A DNA stretch of 64,000 nt from positions 1 through 64,000 of the forward strand of contig JAHEZQ010000023.1 of assembly GCA_023250955.1 (NCBI GenBank), in the 5' to 3' direction. This DNA comes from Melioribacter sp. (lineage in GTDB: Bacteria; Bacteroidota; Ignavibacteria; Ignavibacteriales; Melioribacteraceae). The notes below the pieces were generated by a model. That model was not told where the DNA came from. It did no database searches and worked only from the letters and a program-made list of their open reading frames with translations. The translations under genes and the position numbers were made by a program. Below, piece after piece: positions 14,768 to 23,843 of this stretch (position 1 is the stretch's first letter; each line of letters opens with the position of its first letter).

Positions 14768-15988
14768 ATGTTCGATACCGGAAGTACTGGATTTATGCTT
14801 GTCGCATCCAGCTTAGTAATGCTTATGACACCGGGACTTGCATTTTTTTATGGCGGTCTTGTTGGAAGAAAAAATGTATTAGGAATTATGATTCAAAGTT
14901 TCGTTTCATTAGTCTGGACGACTGTTCTTTGGTTTGCGTTCGGATATTCACTTTGTTTCAGTGGAGGAGAAGGAGGAATAATTGGTAATCTTAACATGGC
15001 ATTTTTATCGGGAACAACTCTGAATTCTATATTCACGGGCAACAATCAAATTCCGCTTTATGTATTTGTTGCGTATCAAATGATGTTTGCAATTATTACT
15101 CCCGCTTTAATAACTGGTGCATTTACAAACAGAGTTCGTTTCCCTGCTTATTTTTTGTTTTTAACTTTTTGGTTAGTGCTAGTTTATTTTCCATTAGTTC
15201 ACATGATTTGGGGCGGCGGTTTACTAGCTCAATGGGGTGTTCTAGATTTCGCAGGCGGAATCGTTGTTCATGCAAGTGCGGGAATGGCGGCATTGGCTTC
15301 TGTTTTTTATGTCGGCAAACGAAATGTTGCCGAGCGTGGTCCGCATAGTATTCCACTTGTTGCATTAGGGACAGGCTTACTTTGGTTCGGTTGGTACGGA
15401 TTCAATGCCGGCAGCGAATTAAAAGTTGACACTATTACTGTAACGGCTTTTATTAATACAGACGTTGCTGCATCATTTGCGGGAGTTACATGGCTATTTC
15501 TTGCCTGGATTCTTGAAAAGAAACCTAAGTTTATTGGTTTGTTAACCGGGTCTGTCGCGGGACTTGCAACTATTACTCCGGCTGCAGGATTTATAACGGT
15601 TGGTAATGCAGCAATCATTGGTATTGTAGCGGGAATAGTTTGTTACTTTGCCGTTGCATTAAAAAATAAACTTAAATGGGATGATGCGTTAGATGTCTGG
15701 GGAGTTCACGGAGTTGGCGGAACAATAGGAATAATAATGCTCGGTTTATTTGCTACAAGAGCTGTTAATCCTATGGTGCAAGTTGATGGTCTTTTTATTG
15801 GCGGTTCGGCTGAATTCTTTTTGAAACAATTAATTTCTGTTGTTGCTGTTGGAGTTTACTGCTTCTTGTTTACTTATATAATGCTGAAAGTAATAAATTA
15901 TATAACACCGGTAAAAGTAACACAAGCAGAGGAAGAAGCCGGGTTGGATAGTTCGTTGCACGGAGAGATTGCATACGAACAAGATTAA
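14768..15988 (+). CDS. amt: Ammonium transporter
   Basis: A 406-residue Amt/Mep/Rh family channel of the inner membrane. The opening SSLVMLMTPGLAFFYGGLVGRKNV is diagnostic, and both pore histidines are present, H168 in GGIVVHASAG and H314 in WGVHGVGG. About 11 membrane segments are expected. AGAGG lies about 5 bases upstream of the ATG. No GlnK/PII gene follows, which is a departure from the usual amtB-glnK pair; it may be encoded elsewhere. A strong hairpin terminator follows. Confidence 0.95.
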   Translation: MFDTGSTGFMLVASSLVMLMTPGLAFFYGGLVGRKNVLGIMIQSFVSLVWTTVLWFAFGYSLCFSGGEGGIIGNLNMAFLSGTTLNSIFTGNNQIPLYVFVAYQMMFAIITPALITGAFTNRVRFPAYFLFLTFWLVLVYFPLVHMIWGGGLLAQWGVLDFAGGIVVHASAGMAALASVFYVGKRNVAERGPHSIPLVALGTGLLWFGWYGFNAGSELKVDTITVTAFINTDVAASFAGVTWLFLAWILEKKPKFIGLLTGSVAGLATITPAAGFITVGNAAIIGIVAGIVCYFAVALKNKLKWDDALDVWGVHGVGGTIGIIMLGLFATRAVNPMVQVDGLFIGGSAEFFLKQLISVVAVGVYCFLFTYIMLKVINYITPVKVTQAEEEAGLDSSLHGEIAYEQD

Positions 15989-16613: not shown

Positions 16614-17978
16614 TTATTTTATCCAAACAGTTTTAATATTTACAAATTCTTTTATTCCATAATGAGAAAGTTCTCGTCCGTATCCGGAATTTTTTATTCC
16701 ACCAAAAGGTAATCGCGGATCGGATTTTACCATTCCGTTAATAAATACTGAACCGCTTTCTATTTTACTCGCAAGGGTCTTTGCCTTTGTAATATTAGAA
16801 GTCCATAAAGAGGCACCGAGTCCAAATGTAGAACTATTTGCGATCTTTATTGCATTGTCTTCATCCTTTGCCTTTATTAGTGATGCAACGGGACCAAATA
16901 TTTCATCGTCGTATGCAGGCATTCCTTTGGAGAGATTTGAAAGAATTGTCGGCTCATAATAAAATCCTTCTCGGTTAATTCTTTTACCTCCACATAGAAC
17001 CACCGCTCCTTTTTCTACAGACTGTTTTACTTGAGCATCTAATTCATTCAACAAATCTTCGCGTGCAATCGGCCCAAGCTCGGTTTCTTTATTCATCGGA
17101 TCGCCAACTTTTGTTTTATTCATCGCATCTACAAATTTCTTTTCAAATTCATTATAGACTTTCTCAACTACAATAAATCTTTTGGCGGCTATACAACTTT
17201 GTCCGTTATTGATTAATCGTGCAGTAACTGCTGTTTTAACTGCTTCATCAATGTTTGCATCATCAAGTACAATAAACGGATCGCTGCCGCCTAATTCTAA
17301 AACTGTTTTTTTCAATTTCGATCCGCATAATGATGCAACTTGCCTGCCTGCCGGTTCGCTTCCTGTTAATGTCACTGCTTTTACATGCGGATGATTTATT
17401 ATTTCTTTTACTTGCGTTGAATCTATTAGCAAAGTTTTAAAAGTGTTTTGTGGTAATCCAGCTTTAATAAATATCTCTTCGATAGCAAGTGCACTCATCG
17501 GAACATTTGAAGCATGTTTAAGCATACAAACATTCCCAGCCATTAAAGCCGGTGCAGCAAAACGGAATACTTGCCAAAATGGAAAATTCCATGGCATTAT
17601 TGCTAGAACAATTCCGATTGGATCGAAACGAACATAACTTTGCGAAGCATCTGTTTGAATAATTTCTTCGTCTAGAATTTTTTGTGCGTTATCAGCATAG
17701 TATTCGCAAACTAAAGCACACTTTTCAACTTCCGCCATTGCCTGTGTAATCGGTTTTCCCATTTCAAGCGTTAGAATTTTTCCGTAATGATCTTTTTTAT
17801 CGCGAAGTACCAGAGCAACTTTTTTAATCAGATTAGCTCGAAATGAAAAATCTGTTTTCCTCCATTCAAGAAATGCATCATTAACTTCTTCAATCATTAT
17901 CATTACTTGGCTGGAAGAATGTTCTTTGAATATTTTTTCGATCTTACCTGTTGCGGGGTTGATTGTTTGAATAGCCAT
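16614..17978 (-). CDS. NAD(P)-dependent succinate-semialdehyde dehydrogenase-type ALDH
   Basis: A 454-residue aldehyde dehydrogenase. The catalytic cysteine is C262 in NNGQSCIAAKRF, and the glutamate motif is VLELGGSDPFIVL. The short N terminus (IQTINPATGKIEK) and the EMGKPITQAMAEVEKCALVCEYYA segment match the Sad/YneI/GabD-type succinate-semialdehyde dehydrogenases, which convert succinate semialdehyde to succinate. No GABA transaminase is adjacent, so the physiological aldehyde is unproven. It is divergent from phoH with about 124 bases between starts. Confidence 0.85.
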   Translation of the reverse strand: MAIQTINPATGKIEKIFKEHSSSQVMIMIEEVNDAFLEWRKTDFSFRANLIKKVALVLRDKKDHYGKILTLEMGKPITQAMAEVEKCALVCEYYADNAQKILDEEIIQTDASQSYVRFDPIGIVLAIMPWNFPFWQVFRFAAPALMAGNVCMLKHASNVPMSALAIEEIFIKAGLPQNTFKTLLIDSTQVKEIINHPHVKAVTLTGSEPAGRQVASLCGSKLKKTVLELGGSDPFIVLDDANIDEAVKTAVTARLINNGQSCIAAKRFIVVEKVYNEFEKKFVDAMNKTKVGDPMNKETELGPIAREDLLNELDAQVKQSVEKGAVVLCGGKRINREGFYYEPTILSNLSKGMPAYDDEIFGPVASLIKAKDEDNAIKIANSSTFGLGASLWTSNITKAKTLASKIESGSVFINGMVKSDPRLPFGGIKNSGYGRELSHYGIKEFVNIKTVWIK

Positions 17979-18102
17979 GATTTATTTCCTACTTGTGCTA
18001 AATAACATTCTGAAAAATAAATTTTCGACAAAGAAAGAAAAAATTTATTATGTTCCATCTGAAATTACTCAGAAAATCTTTCACAATAAATTATTGTTCT
18101 TT

Positions 18103-19443
18103 ATGAAAAAACCCAGTCCTAAAAATTTTGTACTCGACACAAACGTAATCCTTCACGATCCAACTTGCATAAATCACTTCCAAGAAAATAATATAATCAT
18201 TCCACTTGTCGTAATAGAAGAATTGGATCATTTCAAGCGCGGTAATCAAGTGATTAATTTAAACGCGCGCGAATTTGCACGCACACTTGATTCAATTACG
18301 GGAAATGAGATTTTCAACGGCGGCGTATCTCTTGGAAAAGGAAAGGGTAAGGTAAGAATAGTTATAACACGCGGACTGGCTCAGGAGATTCATGATGTGT
18401 TCCGCGAAGATAATGTTGACCACAGAGTTTTAAGTGCCGCACTTGAAGCAAATAAATCCGGGAAAGAAAAAGGGAGAACCATTCTTGTAACGAAAGATGT
18501 AAATCTTCGAATGAAAGCAAAAGCTCTTGGTATTCCCGCAGAAGATTATACAACCGACTGGGTTACAAATGTTGAAGAACTTTACAGCGGCAAAACCATT
18601 ATTGAGGATTTTGATGATGATGTTCTACAGCGTCTTTATCAACCGCCTTTTGAAGTTCCCGCAAAACAAATTCTCAAGAAAATTAAAAATGAGGCTGTTC
18701 CGAATAAATACTTTATAATGCGCAACTCAAGCCGTTCTATACTTTCATGTTTAGATCAAGAGATGGAAAAATTTAAGCGCATTGATAAACAAGTTGCCTA
18801 TGGAATTAAACCAAGAAATGCAGAACAAACTTTTGCAGTTGATGCACTGATTAACTCCGATATACCGCTTGTCTCGATGACGGGAAAAGCCGGCACCGGA
18901 AAAACTTTGCTTGCACTTGCGTGCGCGCTTCAAGTAAGAAAAAATTATAGGCAGATATATATTGCACGTCCCGTTGTTCCTTTGAGCAATAAAGATATCG
19001 GCTACTTGCCGGGCGATGTTGAAAGTAAACTGGCGCCATACATGCAGCCGTTGTGGGATAATTTAAAAGTTATACAAGATCAATTCCCGGAAACTGACAA
19101 AAGTTATCAACTTATTAACGCCCTGATAAAAGATGAGAAACTTGTAATTGAACCTCTTAGTTACATCAGGGGAAGAAGTCTGCAAAGAATTTATTTTATC
19201 GTTGATGAAGCACAGAATCTTACTCCACATGAAATTAAAACTATCATAACACGCGCTGGAGAAGGTGCCAAGATTGTTTTAACGGGAGATATTTATCAAA
19301 TAGATCACCCCTATCTTGATGCTCAATCGAACGGGCTTTCTTATTTGATCGAGCATTTCAAAGGACAAAAACTTTACGCGCATGTAAATCTTGAGAAAGG
19401 TGAAAGATCTGAACTTGCAGAATTAGCAAGCAATCTGCTCTAA
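18103..19443 (+). CDS. PhoH family ATPase with N-terminal PIN domain
   Basis: A 446-residue PhoH2-type protein. The N-terminal PIN RNase domain starts FVLDTNVILHD (acidic D12), and the C-terminal PhoH P-loop domain has Walker A GKAGTGKT at 261-268 and Walker B VDEAQN. Such fusions are RNA-unwinding ribonucleases in the cytoplasm, linked to stress or toxin-antitoxin-like control. The ATG at 18103 is chosen because homologues begin with a short basic tail before FVLDTN; an earlier in-frame start at 17977 would overlap the divergent dehydrogenase start. Confidence 0.88.
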   Translation: MKKPSPKNFVLDTNVILHDPTCINHFQENNIIIPLVVIEELDHFKRGNQVINLNAREFARTLDSITGNEIFNGGVSLGKGKGKVRIVITRGLAQEIHDVFREDNVDHRVLSAALEANKSGKEKGRTILVTKDVNLRMKAKALGIPAEDYTTDWVTNVEELYSGKTIIEDFDDDVLQRLYQPPFEVPAKQILKKIKNEAVPNKYFIMRNSSRSILSCLDQEMEKFKRIDKQVAYGIKPRNAEQTFAVDALINSDIPLVSMTGKAGTGKTLLALACALQVRKNYRQIYIARPVVPLSNKDIGYLPGDVESKLAPYMQPLWDNLKVIQDQFPETDKSYQLINALIKDEKLVIEPLSYIRGRSLQRIYFIVDEAQNLTPHEIKTIITRAGEGAKIVLTGDIYQIDHPYLDAQSNGLSYLIEHFKGQKLYAHVNLEKGERSELAELASNLL

Positions 19444-19574: not shown

Positions 19575-21485
19575 ATGAAAGAATTTCTATTTAAACCTTT
19601 TGAAGAAATGACCAACAAGGATTATGAAACGGTTGGTTTCAAATCCGGATTGGAAATTCATCAGCAGCTTTTCACTACAAAAAAACTTTTCTGCCGCTGC
19701 CCGGCAGGAAAATACAGCGAACATTACGATGCAGAAATTTTACGTCACATGCGTCCGACTCTGTCCGAGCTTGGCGAATACGACGGCACAGCTTTGATGG
19801 AATTTAAAACAAAGAAAGATATTCTCTACAGAATCAATCGCGAAAGTGTTTGTACTTACGAAATGGATGACACTCCCCCGTTTCTAATTAATGATGATGC
19901 ACTCGACATCGCTTTACAATGTGGAATGTTGTTTAATTGTTCAATCGTTGATGAATTACACATCGCAAGGAAACAATATCTTGATGGTAGTATTCCCACC
20001 GGGTTTCAGCGTACGGCAATTTTTGCTCTCGATGGAAAAATTCCTTACAAGAACCGAACTATAGATATTGTGCAGATGTCAATCGAAGAAGATTCTTGCA
20101 GAGAAGTTTCAGACGCAGGTCACTTGCGTGTTTACAGAGCTGATCGTCTCGGAATGCCGCTTATCGAAACAGTGACCGGACCGAATATGCGCACTCCGTT
20201 CGAGGTTGCAGAAGTAGCAGAGATTTGTGCTAACCTCGTTAGAAGTACAAATAAAGTTCGCCGTGGAATTGGATCTGCGCGTGAAGATGTTAACGTAAGT
20301 GTTGAAGGCGGGACAAGGGTTGAGATAAAAGGAGTGCCGAAGATCGGAAGAATTCCGCATCTAACATACAATGAAGCGATGCGTCAGTGGAATCTTTTAC
20401 GTTTGCGCGATGAACTTCATAAAAGAGGAATTACAAAAGAAACTTTTGAGGCAAAGTCCGATGATATTACCCGCATCGTAAAAAAAGCTCACTATCAGCC
20501 AATCCGAGCTGCGATAGAACAAGGAATGATTGTTAAGTGCGTTGTGTTGAGAAAATACACTGGACTTCTTCATTGGCAAACTCAAACCGATACTTATTTC
20601 TCAAAAGAAATTTCAGACCGTGTGCGCGTGATTGCCTGCCTAACAAATATTCCAAACATTATTCATTCTGATAGTAAGGGTGATACTTTAACTTCCGCGG
20701 ATTGGCAAAATATTAAACGCACAGTAGGCGCAACCGACAACGATACAATGGTACTGGTTTGGGGAAATGAACAAGACACTGAAATGGCTGTAAAAGAAAT
20801 TATAATTCGCGCAAAAGAAGCCACGGTTGGAGTTCCATCGGAAACACGACAAGCGATGCGTGACGGAACAAATGGTTTTGAGAGAATTTTACCCGGTGCT
20901 GATAGAATGTATCCCGATACCGATTTACCGCCAACAAGAATTACAGAAGAACGGTTGAAAATATTACAGACTAATCTTCCTGAACAATTTTGGAAAAGAG
21001 AAAAATGGTACCGTGAACTTGGAATCCCCGAAGATACAATCCGAGAATTATCAATTTCAAAATTCGCCCAGTTGTTCAAGTTCTTTGTGACTGAATGGAA
21101 AATTGATTCAACACTTGCTGCAGTTACACTTATCCAATATCCTAAACGGTTGAAGAAGAATGGTGCGGATATAAGTCTGTTAGATGAAGATATGATGAGA
21201 GAAATATTTCAATCATACAAAGACGGTTTGCTTTCTAGCGACGGAATATTGTTGGCTATGGAAAAATCAATGAAGAAAGGAAAGTTTTATTCCGAGCTAT
21301 TGCCAAAATCACTAACCACAAAAGAGTTGGAAGAAATTATAACCGGAACAAATAACGAATTAAGTAAAGTGCGGTTGATAAACAATGAAAACAGAAAAGA
21401 AGTTTTATTAGGATTAGTGATGAACAAAGTAAGAATGGGTGTAGAAGGGAAATTGGTCGCTGAAAAAATAAAGATTAATAAATAA
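19575..21485 (+). CDS. gatE: Glu-tRNA(Gln) amidotransferase subunit E, archaeal type
   Basis: A 636-residue GatE. The cradle domain (about 1-300) opens with GLEIHQQLFTTKKLFCRCP and includes the metal-site region CRCPAG, ETVTGP and GIGSAREDVNVSV. An AspRS-like GAD insertion (about 303-405) and a helical/YqeY tail (about 505-636) follow. This layout separates GatE from bacterial GatB, which lacks the GAD domain and is about 480 residues long. GatE activates Glu-tRNA(Gln) and with GatD converts it to Gln-tRNA(Gln). gatD lies 1 kb downstream on the same strand. GatDE is classically archaeal, so its presence here suggests lateral transfer. Confidence 0.93.
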   Translation: MKEFLFKPFEEMTNKDYETVGFKSGLEIHQQLFTTKKLFCRCPAGKYSEHYDAEILRHMRPTLSELGEYDGTALMEFKTKKDILYRINRESVCTYEMDDTPPFLINDDALDIALQCGMLFNCSIVDELHIARKQYLDGSIPTGFQRTAIFALDGKIPYKNRTIDIVQMSIEEDSCREVSDAGHLRVYRADRLGMPLIETVTGPNMRTPFEVAEVAEICANLVRSTNKVRRGIGSAREDVNVSVEGGTRVEIKGVPKIGRIPHLTYNEAMRQWNLLRLRDELHKRGITKETFEAKSDDITRIVKKAHYQPIRAAIEQGMIVKCVVLRKYTGLLHWQTQTDTYFSKEISDRVRVIACLTNIPNIIHSDSKGDTLTSADWQNIKRTVGATDNDTMVLVWGNEQDTEMAVKEIIIRAKEATVGVPSETRQAMRDGTNGFERILPGADRMYPDTDLPPTRITEERLKILQTNLPEQFWKREKWYRELGIPEDTIRELSISKFAQLFKFFVTEWKIDSTLAAVTLIQYPKRLKKNGADISLLDEDMMREIFQSYKDGLLSSDGILLAMEKSMKKGKFYSELLPKSLTTKELEEIITGTNNELSKVRLINNENRKEVLLGLVMNKVRMGVEGKLVAEKIKINK

Positions 21486-21496
21486 GGAGAATGGTG

Positions 21497-22357
21497 ATGA
21501 AAAAGATTGTTCTCTTTCTGTTATTAGCAAGTATAGCGCCTGCACAAAATATCAACAATTTTGCCGATGCTGTAAAATATTATTCCGTTTTGAAAGTGCG
21601 AGAATATTTAAAAAATGGTGCTGACCCTAATATTCTTGTAGATGGCGATCCGGCGATTTGTTATGTGGCTCGTGTTGAAGGTGTAACCACAAATGCAATT
21701 TTCGATGATCTACTTAATGATGGTGCCAATCCAAACTCAATAGGAAAAGATGGAAATTCTCTGCTATCTATATCAATGTCAAAATTTAATGCCAAACAAG
21801 CTACCGAACTTATCAAGCGCGGTGCCGATCTAAATTTTAAAAATAAAGGTACGCTTCCAGCTCCTTTAATTATGGCCGTTGCCGGAAAACGTAATTGGCC
21901 AAAGACTGACATTTTTCCAAACCTTATAAAATTTATGATCGATAATAAAGCAGATGTAAATATTCAAGATTCATATAAAACAACTCCTCTAATGATGGTA
22001 ATTGGTGCAAATGATTTTGAATCGGTAAAATTCTTTCTTGATAAAAAATCAGATCCAAACTTAAAAGATCTGGCCGGAGAAACACCTTTAATGATTGCAT
22101 CTGAACGCGGACAATTAGAAACTGTAAAAGCATTATTAGACCGTGGTGCAGATCCAAATATTCTGCCGGGTAATAAGGAAACTGCATTAATGAGAGCTGC
22201 ACAAAACGGGTATAAAGAAGTTGTGATTATGCTCTTAGAAAAAGGAGCCAAAACAAATTTCCAGAATACGTATCATGAAACTGCATTGCGGTTAGCTCAG
22301 CTTAAAGGTCATAAAGAGATTATAGAGATATTAAAAAAAGCTGGTGCAAAAAAATAA
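21497..22357 (+). CDS. Exported ankyrin-repeat protein
   Basis: About 286 residues, with a short signal peptide (MKKIVLFLLLASIAPAQN) and six or seven ankyrin repeats, seen as recurring G-A-D-x-N, TPLM and A-x-x-G motifs (for example DLAGETPLMIASERGQLE). Ankyrin arrays bind other proteins; the ligand is unknown. AAGGAG lies 7 bases before the ATG at 21497, so this start is preferred to the ATG at 21491. It begins 11 bases after the gatE stop and stands between gatE and gatD. The signal peptide puts the product outside the cytoplasm, so it is not expected to be part of the amidotransferase. Confidence 0.82.
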   Translation: MKKIVLFLLLASIAPAQNINNFADAVKYYSVLKVREYLKNGADPNILVDGDPAICYVARVEGVTTNAIFDDLLNDGANPNSIGKDGNSLLSISMSKFNAKQATELIKRGADLNFKNKGTLPAPLIMAVAGKRNWPKTDIFPNLIKFMIDNKADVNIQDSYKTTPLMMVIGANDFESVKFFLDKKSDPNLKDLAGETPLMIASERGQLETVKALLDRGADPNILPGNKETALMRAAQNGYKEVVIMLLEKGAKTNFQNTYHETALRLAQLKGHKEIIEILKKAGAKK

Positions 22358-22364
22358 ACAATAA

Positions 22365-22453
22365 TCTCTGCGTTCTCAGCGTCTTCTCTGCGCACTTTGC
22401 GTTAAAGCTTTTAACCGCAGAGGGCACAAAGAAATCCGCAGAATTCGCAAAGG
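22365..22453. repeat. CTCTGCG/CTTTGCG repeat before gatD
   Basis: TCTCTGCGTTCTCAGCG...CACTTTGCGTTAAAGC and TTTAACCGCAGAGGGCACAAAG...GAATTCGCAAAGG form an imperfect inverted pair. The last part, GCAAAGGA, ends 8 bases before the gatD ATG and appears to provide its ribosome-binding site. A related copy is at 54967-55038 and a degenerate one just before the GH92 gene (38337-38359). Confidence 0.6.
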
Positions 22454-22460
22454 AAAAATT

Positions 22461-23843
22461 ATGGCAGAAGATTACAAAGGTTATCGAGGGAAAGCACTTT
22501 CGGTTCTAAAAAATTTCAGCGCGCTTGTGTGGAGTGATGTTGAGATCACAACAACGAAAGGAAATTACAAAGGCATTATTCTTCCCCGTTCTGAAACTGC
22601 TGATCCTTTTCACATTGTAATAAAAATGCCGATCGGCTACAACATTGGCGTTGCTGCTGATCTTGTTACAGATATAAAAATTAGAGGGCGCAAAGAAGCG
22701 CATTATAAAATTCCCGAAAAAGATTTCCCTCGCGATCCGTTAAAACCAAATGTAAAACTTCTAGGCACGGGTGGAACAATTGCTTCGCGTCTTGATTACA
22801 GAACCGGTGCAGTTATTCCCGCATTTTCTCCGGGAGAACTTTACGGTTCGGTTCCTGAACTTGCCAACTATTGCAATCTCGAAACTGAAAAACTTTACGG
22901 CGTCTTTAGTGAGAACATGGGACCTGATCAATGGAAAGGAACAGCGGAAGCAATCGGAAGAGAAATTGAAAAAGGCGTTGACGGAATTGTGATTGGTCAC
23001 GGAACGGATACGATGCATCATACAGCGGCTGTTCTATCTTTTATGGTACAGAATTCTCCTGTTCCAATTGTAATGGTTGGTTCACAAAGATCGAGCGACC
23101 GTCCTTCTTCTGATGCAGCTCTTAATTTAATGCACAGTGTTAAGACTGCAGCGGAAAGCGATATTGCAGAAGTGATGGTCTGTATGTTCGGACCGACATC
23201 GGATTATTACGGATTACTTCACAGGGGAACTCGCGTACGAAAAATGCATTCGAGCTACCGTTCAACATTCAGAACTATCGGAGATATTCCAATTGCAAAA
23301 GTAAGCCGAGATGAAATCACTCCGCTAAGACAAGATTACAAACACCGCCGCAGAGACCGCAACGTAAAAATTAACACTGCATTTGAAGAGAAAGTCAGTA
23401 TTGTTTATTACTATCCAAATATGAAACCAGATATTATCGAATCACTTATTGATAACGACTACAAAGGAATTGTTATTGCGGGAACAGGGCTTGGACATGT
23501 AAACAAACCGCTCTATCCCGCACTAAAGCGTGCGCACGAAAAAGGAATTTCAATTTACATGACTGTTCAAACACTTTGGGGTTACGTACAAATGTACGTT
23601 TACGATACTGGTCGTGATATGATGGAGCTTGGTGTAATTCCCGGAGAAAATATGCTGCCCGAAGTTGCTTACATGAAATTATGCTGGGCTTTAGGACAAA
23701 CAACCGATCAGAAAAAAGTGAAAGAGATAATGCTTACATCAATTGCCGGAGAAATTACAGAACGTGAACCGAGCAACGGTTATTTAATTTACCAAGGCGG
23801 TTTGCCTGAAGTAGAAGAATTTATTTCGAAGTATGTTAAATAA
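22461..23843 (+). CDS. gatD: Glu-tRNA(Gln) amidotransferase subunit D, archaeal type
   Basis: A 460-residue GatD: an N-terminal small beta domain (about 1-85) and an L-asparaginase-like glutaminase domain. The catalytic threonines and aspartate are in place, T106 in GTGGTIASR and T182-D183 in GHGTDTMHHT, with further conserved SQRSSDRPSSDAA. It releases ammonia from glutamine or asparagine for GatE. The N-terminal domain (about 90 residues before the first catalytic motif) and the TGGTIASRLDYRTGAV run distinguish it from plain asparaginase. It is part of the gatE-ank-gatD cluster, and its ribosome-binding site falls in an intergenic repeat. Confidence 0.92.
   Translation: MAEDYKGYRGKALSVLKNFSALVWSDVEITTTKGNYKGIILPRSETADPFHIVIKMPIGYNIGVAADLVTDIKIRGRKEAHYKIPEKDFPRDPLKPNVKLLGTGGTIASRLDYRTGAVIPAFSPGELYGSVPELANYCNLETEKLYGVFSENMGPDQWKGTAEAIGREIEKGVDGIVIGHGTDTMHHTAAVLSFMVQNSPVPIVMVGSQRSSDRPSSDAALNLMHSVKTAAESDIAEVMVCMFGPTSDYYGLLHRGTRVRKMHSSYRSTFRTIGDIPIAKVSRDEITPLRQDYKHRRRDRNVKINTAFEEKVSIVYYYPNMKPDIIESLIDNDYKGIVIAGTGLGHVNKPLYPALKRAHEKGISIYMTVQTLWGYVQMYVYDTGRDMMELGVIPGENMLPEVAYMKLCWALGQTTDQKKVKEIMLTSIAGEITEREPSNGYLIYQGGLPEVEEFISKYVK

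Follow-up and report, generated by a model that had tools for sequence, protein, structure and literature searches.

The 64,000-nucleotide stretch of Melioribacter sp. DNA analyzed here (contig JAHEZQ010000023.1, positions 1 to 64,000; hereafter the window) encodes a real, intact, and full-length GatDE pair in a bacterium. The first of the two genes, gatE (19575..21485, + strand, 636 amino acids), is predicted to encode the subunit with the kinase and transamidase functions in an amidotransferase of the Glu-tRNA(Gln) type, and the second, gatD (22461..23843, + strand, 460 amino acids), the asparaginase-type amidohydrolase subunit that would supply ammonia. Both were characterized with NCBIfam and Pfam profiles, solved relatives in the PDB, trees, and ratios of nonsynonymous to synonymous substitution rates (dN/dS), complemented by alignment columns and an AlphaFold2 model for GatE and by an inspection of individual residues for GatD. 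An ankyrin-repeat gene recognized by the Pfam Ank family (21491..22357, + strand) lies between them, and the order gatE-ank-gatD that a preliminary description of the locus had read from the sequence was confirmed by profile matches over curated cut-offs.

The window GatE matches the NCBIfam model NF003107 over residues 13-633 (541.8 bits against a cut-off of 456) and, over its full length, the curated equivalog TIGR00134 (478.3 bits, cut-off 319.55, residues 16-633), while the best GatB model stays far below its own threshold (133.5 bits, cut-off 338). Chance is not a plausible source of this match because only archaea among 14 control genomes pass the same GatE profile (4/14 over cut-off). 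The GAD insertion that the preliminary description had assigned to GatE scores below the Pfam cut-off when taken alone (PF02938, 20.5 bits against 23.4), but the fold of the model and the profile matches over the full length speak for a GatE. Its nearest solved chains are 1zq1_C and 2d6f_C, both from archaeal GatDE, and the AlphaFold2 model (mean predicted local distance difference test score, pLDDT, of 82) is best matched by 1zq1 and 2d6f (E 2.4e-39, TM-score 0.59-0.63 by query length), with GatB next.

GatD scores well above the cut-off of the curated equivalog TIGR02153 (517.9 bits against 324), contains a GatD_N domain (PF18195, 45.4 bits, cut-off 25.7), and has 2d6f_A and 1zq1_A as its nearest solved chains. 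It also passes the wider subfamily model for type I asparaginases (401.8 bits, cut-off 260.5), yet an ordinary enzyme of that type was ruled out by the equivalog score, the GatD_N domain, and the linkage to gatE. T106, T182, and D183 are intact at the positions originally claimed, as is K261, and we take these four residues, including the role of the lysine, to be the GatD active-site quartet. This quartet is found in 96 of the 97 GatD rows of the clade B set (see below), with the remaining row truncated at that point.

Among 395 genomes sampled from the phylum, 98 of them from the window's class, GatE exceeds its cut-off in 29, all within the class (29/98). Of 28 relative loci in the class, 27 keep the two genes linked and 26 have them as immediate neighbors on a single strand, one further locus (L049) reaching the contig end after gatE. 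Only the window and a single same-genus relative among these 28 loci (L052, genome G082) carry the ankyrin gene inside the pair; its product has an N-terminus that by eye appears hydrophobic and signal-like, and the gene is probably an insert and not part of the enzyme. Within the class, GatD is 69-98% and GatE 44-89% identical to the window proteins, and both genes are under strong purifying selection (dN/dS of 0.046-0.068 for gatE in five comparisons and of 0.017-0.022 for gatD in four). An in-frame TAA within two same-genus gatE genes was set aside as an effect of where the matches end, with open reading frames of 633 and 635 amino acids running to the stop. Two members of the class (L061 and L063) have a GatE just 39-48% identical to that of the window, depending on the measure; the L063 protein groups with GatE of Bacteroidales, which indicates that gatDE has moved between groups.

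The patchy presence in 29 of 98 class genomes might suggest a dispensable, horizontally acquired relic, or the locus might be an assembly contamination. We find either hardly credible. The source assembly comprises 3.26 Mb in 67 contigs, with a listed completeness of 100%. Contamination is unlikely because the gatE-gatD pair recurs in relatives and the window shares flanking genes with two same-genus assemblies of only 5 and 8 contigs, and dN/dS values of 0.02-0.07 speak against a relic.

Beyond the class, a scan of named genomes matched at least 577 relatives, of which the best 80 were kept: 79 bacterial loci and, by title, one from Thermoplasmatota. These were ranked by similarity to the divergent class member L061, and the ranking is uninformative on how common archaeal matches are. 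All of the best 80 score at least 700 bits against the GatE profile of the class, and 69 of the loci contain a GatD match, usually just downstream of gatE. Their titles name Ignavibacteria, Bacteroidales and other Bacteroidota, Kapaibacterium, Caldithrix, Cloacimonetes, Aminicenantes, Planctomycetota, Krumholzibacteriota, Fermentibacteria/Aegiribacteria, Gemmatimonadetes, Myxococcales, Acidobacteria, KSB1, Zixibacteria, WOR-3, and Coatesbacteria, or plainly a "bacterium". The bacterial carriers are mostly metagenome-assembled genomes (MAGs), and some phyla are represented by a single MAG for which misbinning is possible. Named strains are found among them as well, comprising Marinifilum flexuosum, two Labilibaculum (one of them L. 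euxinus), and Perlabentimonas gracilis; GlnRS (glutaminyl-tRNA synthetase) was detected in M. flexuosum, L. euxinus, and P. gracilis, and GatB in none of the three. The proposal that GatDE is distributed more widely than usually described was thus well founded, with bacterial rows from 13 named phyla in the GatE tree.

To place these sequences relative to the archaeal enzyme, we surveyed 116 Thermoplasmatota genomes, 102 of which encode a GatE over cut-off, and fetched 50 GatE loci. Against the class profile, the archaeal copies that were fetched fall into two score groups, of 640-798 and 264-486 bits. A GatE tree of 95 rows contains one clade of 24 canonical archaeal rows including Pyrococcus abyssi and Methanothermobacter thermautotrophicus (clade A, support 100) and another that unites every one of the 59 bacterial rows with 11 Thermoplasmatota rows (clade B, Shimodaira-Hasegawa-like approximate likelihood ratio support of 99); L189, another row from Thermoplasmatota, sits on a long branch as the sister of clade B. 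Rows from Ignavibacteriaceae lie near that of the window. When the tree was rooted with eight GatB rows and L189 was left out, clade A (22 rows, 100/96) and clade B (37 rows including the window, 100/99) each formed one group in 200 of 200 bootstrap trees. Its deepest clade B branches are Thermoplasmatota, and the 27 bacterial rows form a single group (94/86). The split did not change when a partial Halobacteria row was added, again with L189 left out, though clade A is sampled from Thermoplasmatota and three other archaea only. A quick GatD tree with one outgroup row reproduced the same split with L189 again as sister of clade B, although some of its branches are very long and the canonical rows do not form one group. 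The window GatDE therefore belongs to a separate clade, B, sister to the canonical archaeal clade A, and these phylogenies, which the preliminary description had proposed as a check, place neither protein within GatB or ordinary asparaginases.

This topology bears on the idea that canonical archaeal GatDE was transferred into the lineage to make Gln-tRNA instead of GlnRS or GatCAB. Clear homology and the archaeal deepest branches of clade B favor it, whereas the recovery of A and B as one group each in every bootstrap tree speaks against it. Of the transfer from archaea that had been suggested, the part in which the canonical enzyme moved in did not hold up, while archaea may be the ultimate source of clade B since Thermoplasmatota form its deepest branches.

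Several archaeal loci deserve separate mention. Two Thermoplasmatota genomes (G549 and G558) hold one GatE copy of each clade, and nine of the 11 archaeal genomes with clade B show no clade A copy (at a threshold of 1e-60, with GlnRS tested in G490 alone). From the two genomes with both clades come canonical GatD proteins that are extremely divergent (L177, 2678-4069, and L179, 7622-9028; branches of about 3) with an intact catalytic quartet. L189, in which both GatE and GatD are long sisters of clade B in the clade B gene order gatE-gatD, is possibly a third or intermediate lineage. Clade B gatD adjoins gatE on the opposite strand in divergent orientation in L190 and L191 and lies 1.6 kb downstream of gatE on the opposite strand in L192. 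Finally, the record of a 987 kb plasmid from Natrinema thermotolerans strain A29 contains an unannotated canonical gatE split over two frames (L267, 2501-4365).

The genome of the window encodes GlnRS (736.9 bits, cut-off 425.8), AsnRS (asparaginyl-tRNA synthetase; 506.7 bits), and GatB (606.3 bits), the last as a gene separate from gatE. The search for glnS and gatCAB that had been advised as a check hence found both GlnRS and GatB, GatCAB being scored by GatB in all genomes. The expectation that GatDE stands in for GatCAB or GlnRS in forming Gln-tRNA is at odds with this result. GlnRS accompanies GatE in 26 of the 29 class genomes that carry it, whereas G247, G283, and G310, the three without, have GatB; AsnRS is over cut-off in 27 of the 29, and seven combine GlnRS and AsnRS with no detected GatB. 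Among class genomes without GatE, GlnRS was found in 35 of 69, one (G306) having a partial match under the cut-off, which amounts to a positive association between GatE and GlnRS (Fisher p 0.0002, uncorrected for kinship). In named bacteria with B-type GatE, a set that overlaps the phylum sample, GlnRS is over cut-off in 68 of 79 (40/49 and 28/30). A replacement of GlnRS by GatDE was rejected on these co-occurrence counts, and together with the tree they leave a transferred canonical enzyme in that role very improbable. The GlnRS of the 26 class genomes and 68 named bacteria points to clade B as a parallel route to Gln-tRNA(Gln).

Genomes in which this parallel is missing bear on the substrate. 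GatB is over cut-off in 21 of the 49 named bacterial genomes tested for it, and of the nine among these 49 without detected GlnRS, four have GatB and five (G469, G472, G482, G492, and G495) have neither. The Thermoplasmatota MAG G490 likewise carries clade B, and neither a clade A copy nor GatB or GlnRS over cut-off was detected in it. Such genomes, with clade B as the sole detected route to glutamine, suggest that the clade B enzyme can amidate Glu-tRNA(Gln), as do the nine of 11 archaeal carriers in which no clade A copy was detected. One candidate, the 1.4 Mb genome of a rumen Bacteroidales (L105), was discarded as GatDE-only, incompleteness being more likely given that GlnRS is encoded by the genome of L106, a relative.

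Our preferred reading, which we hold with about even confidence, is that the window encodes a working two-subunit tRNA-dependent amidotransferase of clade B whose most likely role would be to form Gln-tRNA(Gln) by a second or corrective route. According to this reading, imperfect discrimination by GluRS (glutamyl-tRNA synthetase) would generate Glu-tRNA(Gln), which clade B GatDE would convert to Gln-tRNA(Gln). GatD would hydrolyze glutamine or asparagine to release ammonia, and GatE would bind the misacylated tRNA and use ATP to phosphorylate the side-chain carboxyl group of the amino acid that this tRNA carries, so that ammonia could displace the phosphate and yield the amidated aminoacyl-tRNA. 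We infer this chemistry from homology to solved GatDE enzymes and from conserved residues, and regard the tRNA substrate and physiological role of clade B GatDE as inferences too. With GlnRS in the same cell, the enzyme probably does not supply most of the Gln-tRNA(Gln), and Glu-tRNA(Gln) is favored as its substrate because some genomes show no other route to glutamine and the core of the enzyme is conserved.

This conservation became apparent from a column comparison of 23 clade A and 94 clade B rows of GatE, in which 72 columns, including E27, H29, E171, and E198, show conservation of 90% or more in each clade. Over the first 300 residues, mean pairwise identity reaches 0.64 in clade B but 0.52 in clade A, with the two sets unequally sampled. 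Another 16 columns are set differently between the clades (at least 80% of A and at least 85% of B), and seven of these lie in segments 94-100 and 135-141 of the window GatE, where many residues are invariant. Clade B shows the residue of this genome's GatB at T72, Y135, P141, and D448, while clade A does so at one of the 16 positions; this comparison includes GatB from one genome only. The GatE C-terminal end, which from work on GatB and GatE we assume to be the tRNA-binding part, evolves differently, and clade B can be described as holding its catalytic part fast while this presumed tRNA-binding end drifts.

A number of observations weigh against a role in making Gln-tRNA(Gln). Mean pairwise identity over GatE residues 463-636 is lower in clade B than in clade A (0.243 versus 0.324, again with unequal sampling), and the tail motif G..M...[RK]G[KR] is found in 20 of 23 clade A rows and in 26 of 94 clade B rows (13/29 in the class, 0/13 in the Bacteroidales set, and 3/11 in archaea), with the window GatE among those that do not fit it. 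Both tRNA-Gln genes of the window genome (TTG and CTG, among 43 tRNA matches) have a U1-A72 pair. Archaeal GatDE is described, in an excerpt of a 2022 review, as interacting with A1:U72 and the D-loop of tRNA-Gln (PMC9499178), which implies that clade B either reads bacterial tRNA-Gln differently or acts elsewhere. The position of Thermus Arg358 is Arg in 21 of 21 aligned class GluRS proteins from genomes with and without GlnRS alike; it discriminates nothing and is uninformative on the formation of Glu-tRNA(Gln) by this cell's GluRS. According to the portion of the report consulted (PMC3927822), this residue was important in Thermus but not in Helicobacter. The five bacterial genomes with clade B as sole detected route are MAGs of 1.4-2.4 Mb that come with no completeness figures and may be incomplete; no GluRS-like match was seen in G482 and G472 either, and a relative of G495 does have GlnRS. 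Chance loss is somewhat less likely in G469 and G472 because these two are sister Fermentibacteria-type MAGs.

The same evidence can be read as pointing to the same chemistry on a different substrate, for example Asp-tRNA(Asn), a dual range like that of GatCAB, or a special tRNA pool, which would entail no competition with GlnRS. The 16 consistent differences in GatE with their concentration in two segments, the four residues common to clade B and GatB, the frequent loss of the tail motif, and the bacterial-type U1-A72 pair of tRNA-Gln would all fit such a change, as would the presence of a glutamine route beside GatE in 29 of 29 class genomes, the frequency of GlnRS among the named bacteria, and the retention of clade A besides clade B in two archaeal genomes. 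Conversely, Asn-tRNA is not missing either, given that 27 of the 29 GatE-bearing class genomes have AsnRS over cut-off, clade B is the sole amidotransferase of the GatE/GatB kind detected in the five bacterial and several archaeal MAGs, and the residue argument draws on a single genome's GatB and on two segments that both have a pLDDT below 50 in the window GatE model. On balance, we consider a change of substrate less probable than the preferred reading, though a serious rival to it. A wider formulation is possible, if tentative, namely that clade B represents an unrecognized tRNA-dependent amidotransferase system of bacteria and some Thermoplasmatota that operates beside GlnRS with a purpose or substrate other than bulk synthesis of Gln-tRNA(Gln); candidate purposes would be the dedicated repair of Glu-tRNA(Gln), a second route that can be switched, or the amidation of another aminoacyl-tRNA.

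GatD might also have become an asparaginase/glutaminase regulated by tRNA or GatE that serves nitrogen supply, with transamidation secondary. Its stricter conservation compared to GatE (69-98% versus 44-89% identity and dN/dS of about 0.02 versus about 0.06) would agree with this, as would an ammonium transporter gene at 14768-15988 that ends around 3.6 kb upstream of gatE and recurs 5-8 kb upstream of it (between midpoints) in four close relatives. However, the transporter neighbors gatE in close relatives only, and transamidation appears to be under selection because the catalytic part of GatE varies less within clade B than within clade A, at unequal sampling. We therefore regard a primary role in nitrogen supply as rather improbable.

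In comparison to known systems, the window pair resembles archaeal GatDE of Pyrococcus abyssi (1ZQ1) and Methanothermobacter thermautotrophicus (2D6F) in its two subunits, full-length profile matches, GatD quartet, conserved GatE core, and best structural match. It differs from them by its place in a sister clade, the 16 consistent residue differences, a degenerate tail motif, a fast-evolving C-terminus, and a host that has GlnRS and U1-A72 tRNA-Gln; moreover, its gene order is gatE-gatD, while gatD comes first in the canonical Thermoplasmatota loci that show both genes. Bacterial GatCAB shares with it the homology of GatB and GatE, with GatB as the second-best kind of structural match and four of the 16 residues common to clade B, and clade B GatDE can, like GatCAB, sit beside GlnRS and AsnRS. 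Unlike GatCAB, the window protein fits the GatE profile, and its partner is an asparaginase-type GatD instead of GatA and GatC. Bdellovibrio, Deinococcus, and Thermus offer a precedent for keeping an amidotransferase in a cell with GlnRS and AsnRS; their GatCAB serves tRNA-dependent formation of asparagine, as stated in an excerpt of PMC4206432. This explanation applies to GatCAB, whereas GatDE has been described as a Glu-tRNA(Gln) enzyme.

The excerpted 2022 review presents GatDE as now confined to archaea and GlnRS as present in no archaeon, and builds on these two points to discuss the parting of bacterial and archaeal glutamine coding (PMC9499178). As of 2014, according to the excerpt of PMC4206432, genes for both routes to Gln-tRNA(Gln) were not known from any one bacterium. 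Two routes had already been hinted at in another form, since genomes with both GlnRS and GluRS2, a maker of Glu-tRNA(Gln), were reported in the same year in the part of PMC3927822 that we consulted. Among open-access literature searched by title or abstract start, we found no report of GatDE in bacteria, which is no proof of novelty. A bacterial GatDE that forms a clade apart from the solved enzymes and mostly occurs beside GlnRS makes the simultaneous operation of two Gln-tRNA routes testable, and clade B alters the evidence available on how the two amidotransferases arose.

Across 108 gatE loci, the neighbor clusters seen are common to related loci only, with family searches confined to the neighbors in the window, and an assignment of function from gene neighborhood was abandoned. 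A dedicated tRNA linked to gatDE was likewise rejected: the 64-kb window contains no tRNA gene beside the pair, and aragorn made eight scattered tRNA calls over the 108 loci, two of them tRNA-Glu (L088 and L090). No Rfam family reached threshold in the window. Directly upstream of gatE lies a gene for a PIN-PhoH type protein (17977-19443), relatives of which neighbor gatE in 11 other loci, all from near relatives. Further downstream, a run of mostly same-strand glycosidase genes at 36033-58677, comprising glycoside hydrolase (GH) families GH20, GH92, and GH2, three alpha-L-fucosidases, a GH109-like protein, GH35, GH125, and GH47, looks like a locus for the breakdown of N-glycans or mucin-type glycans.

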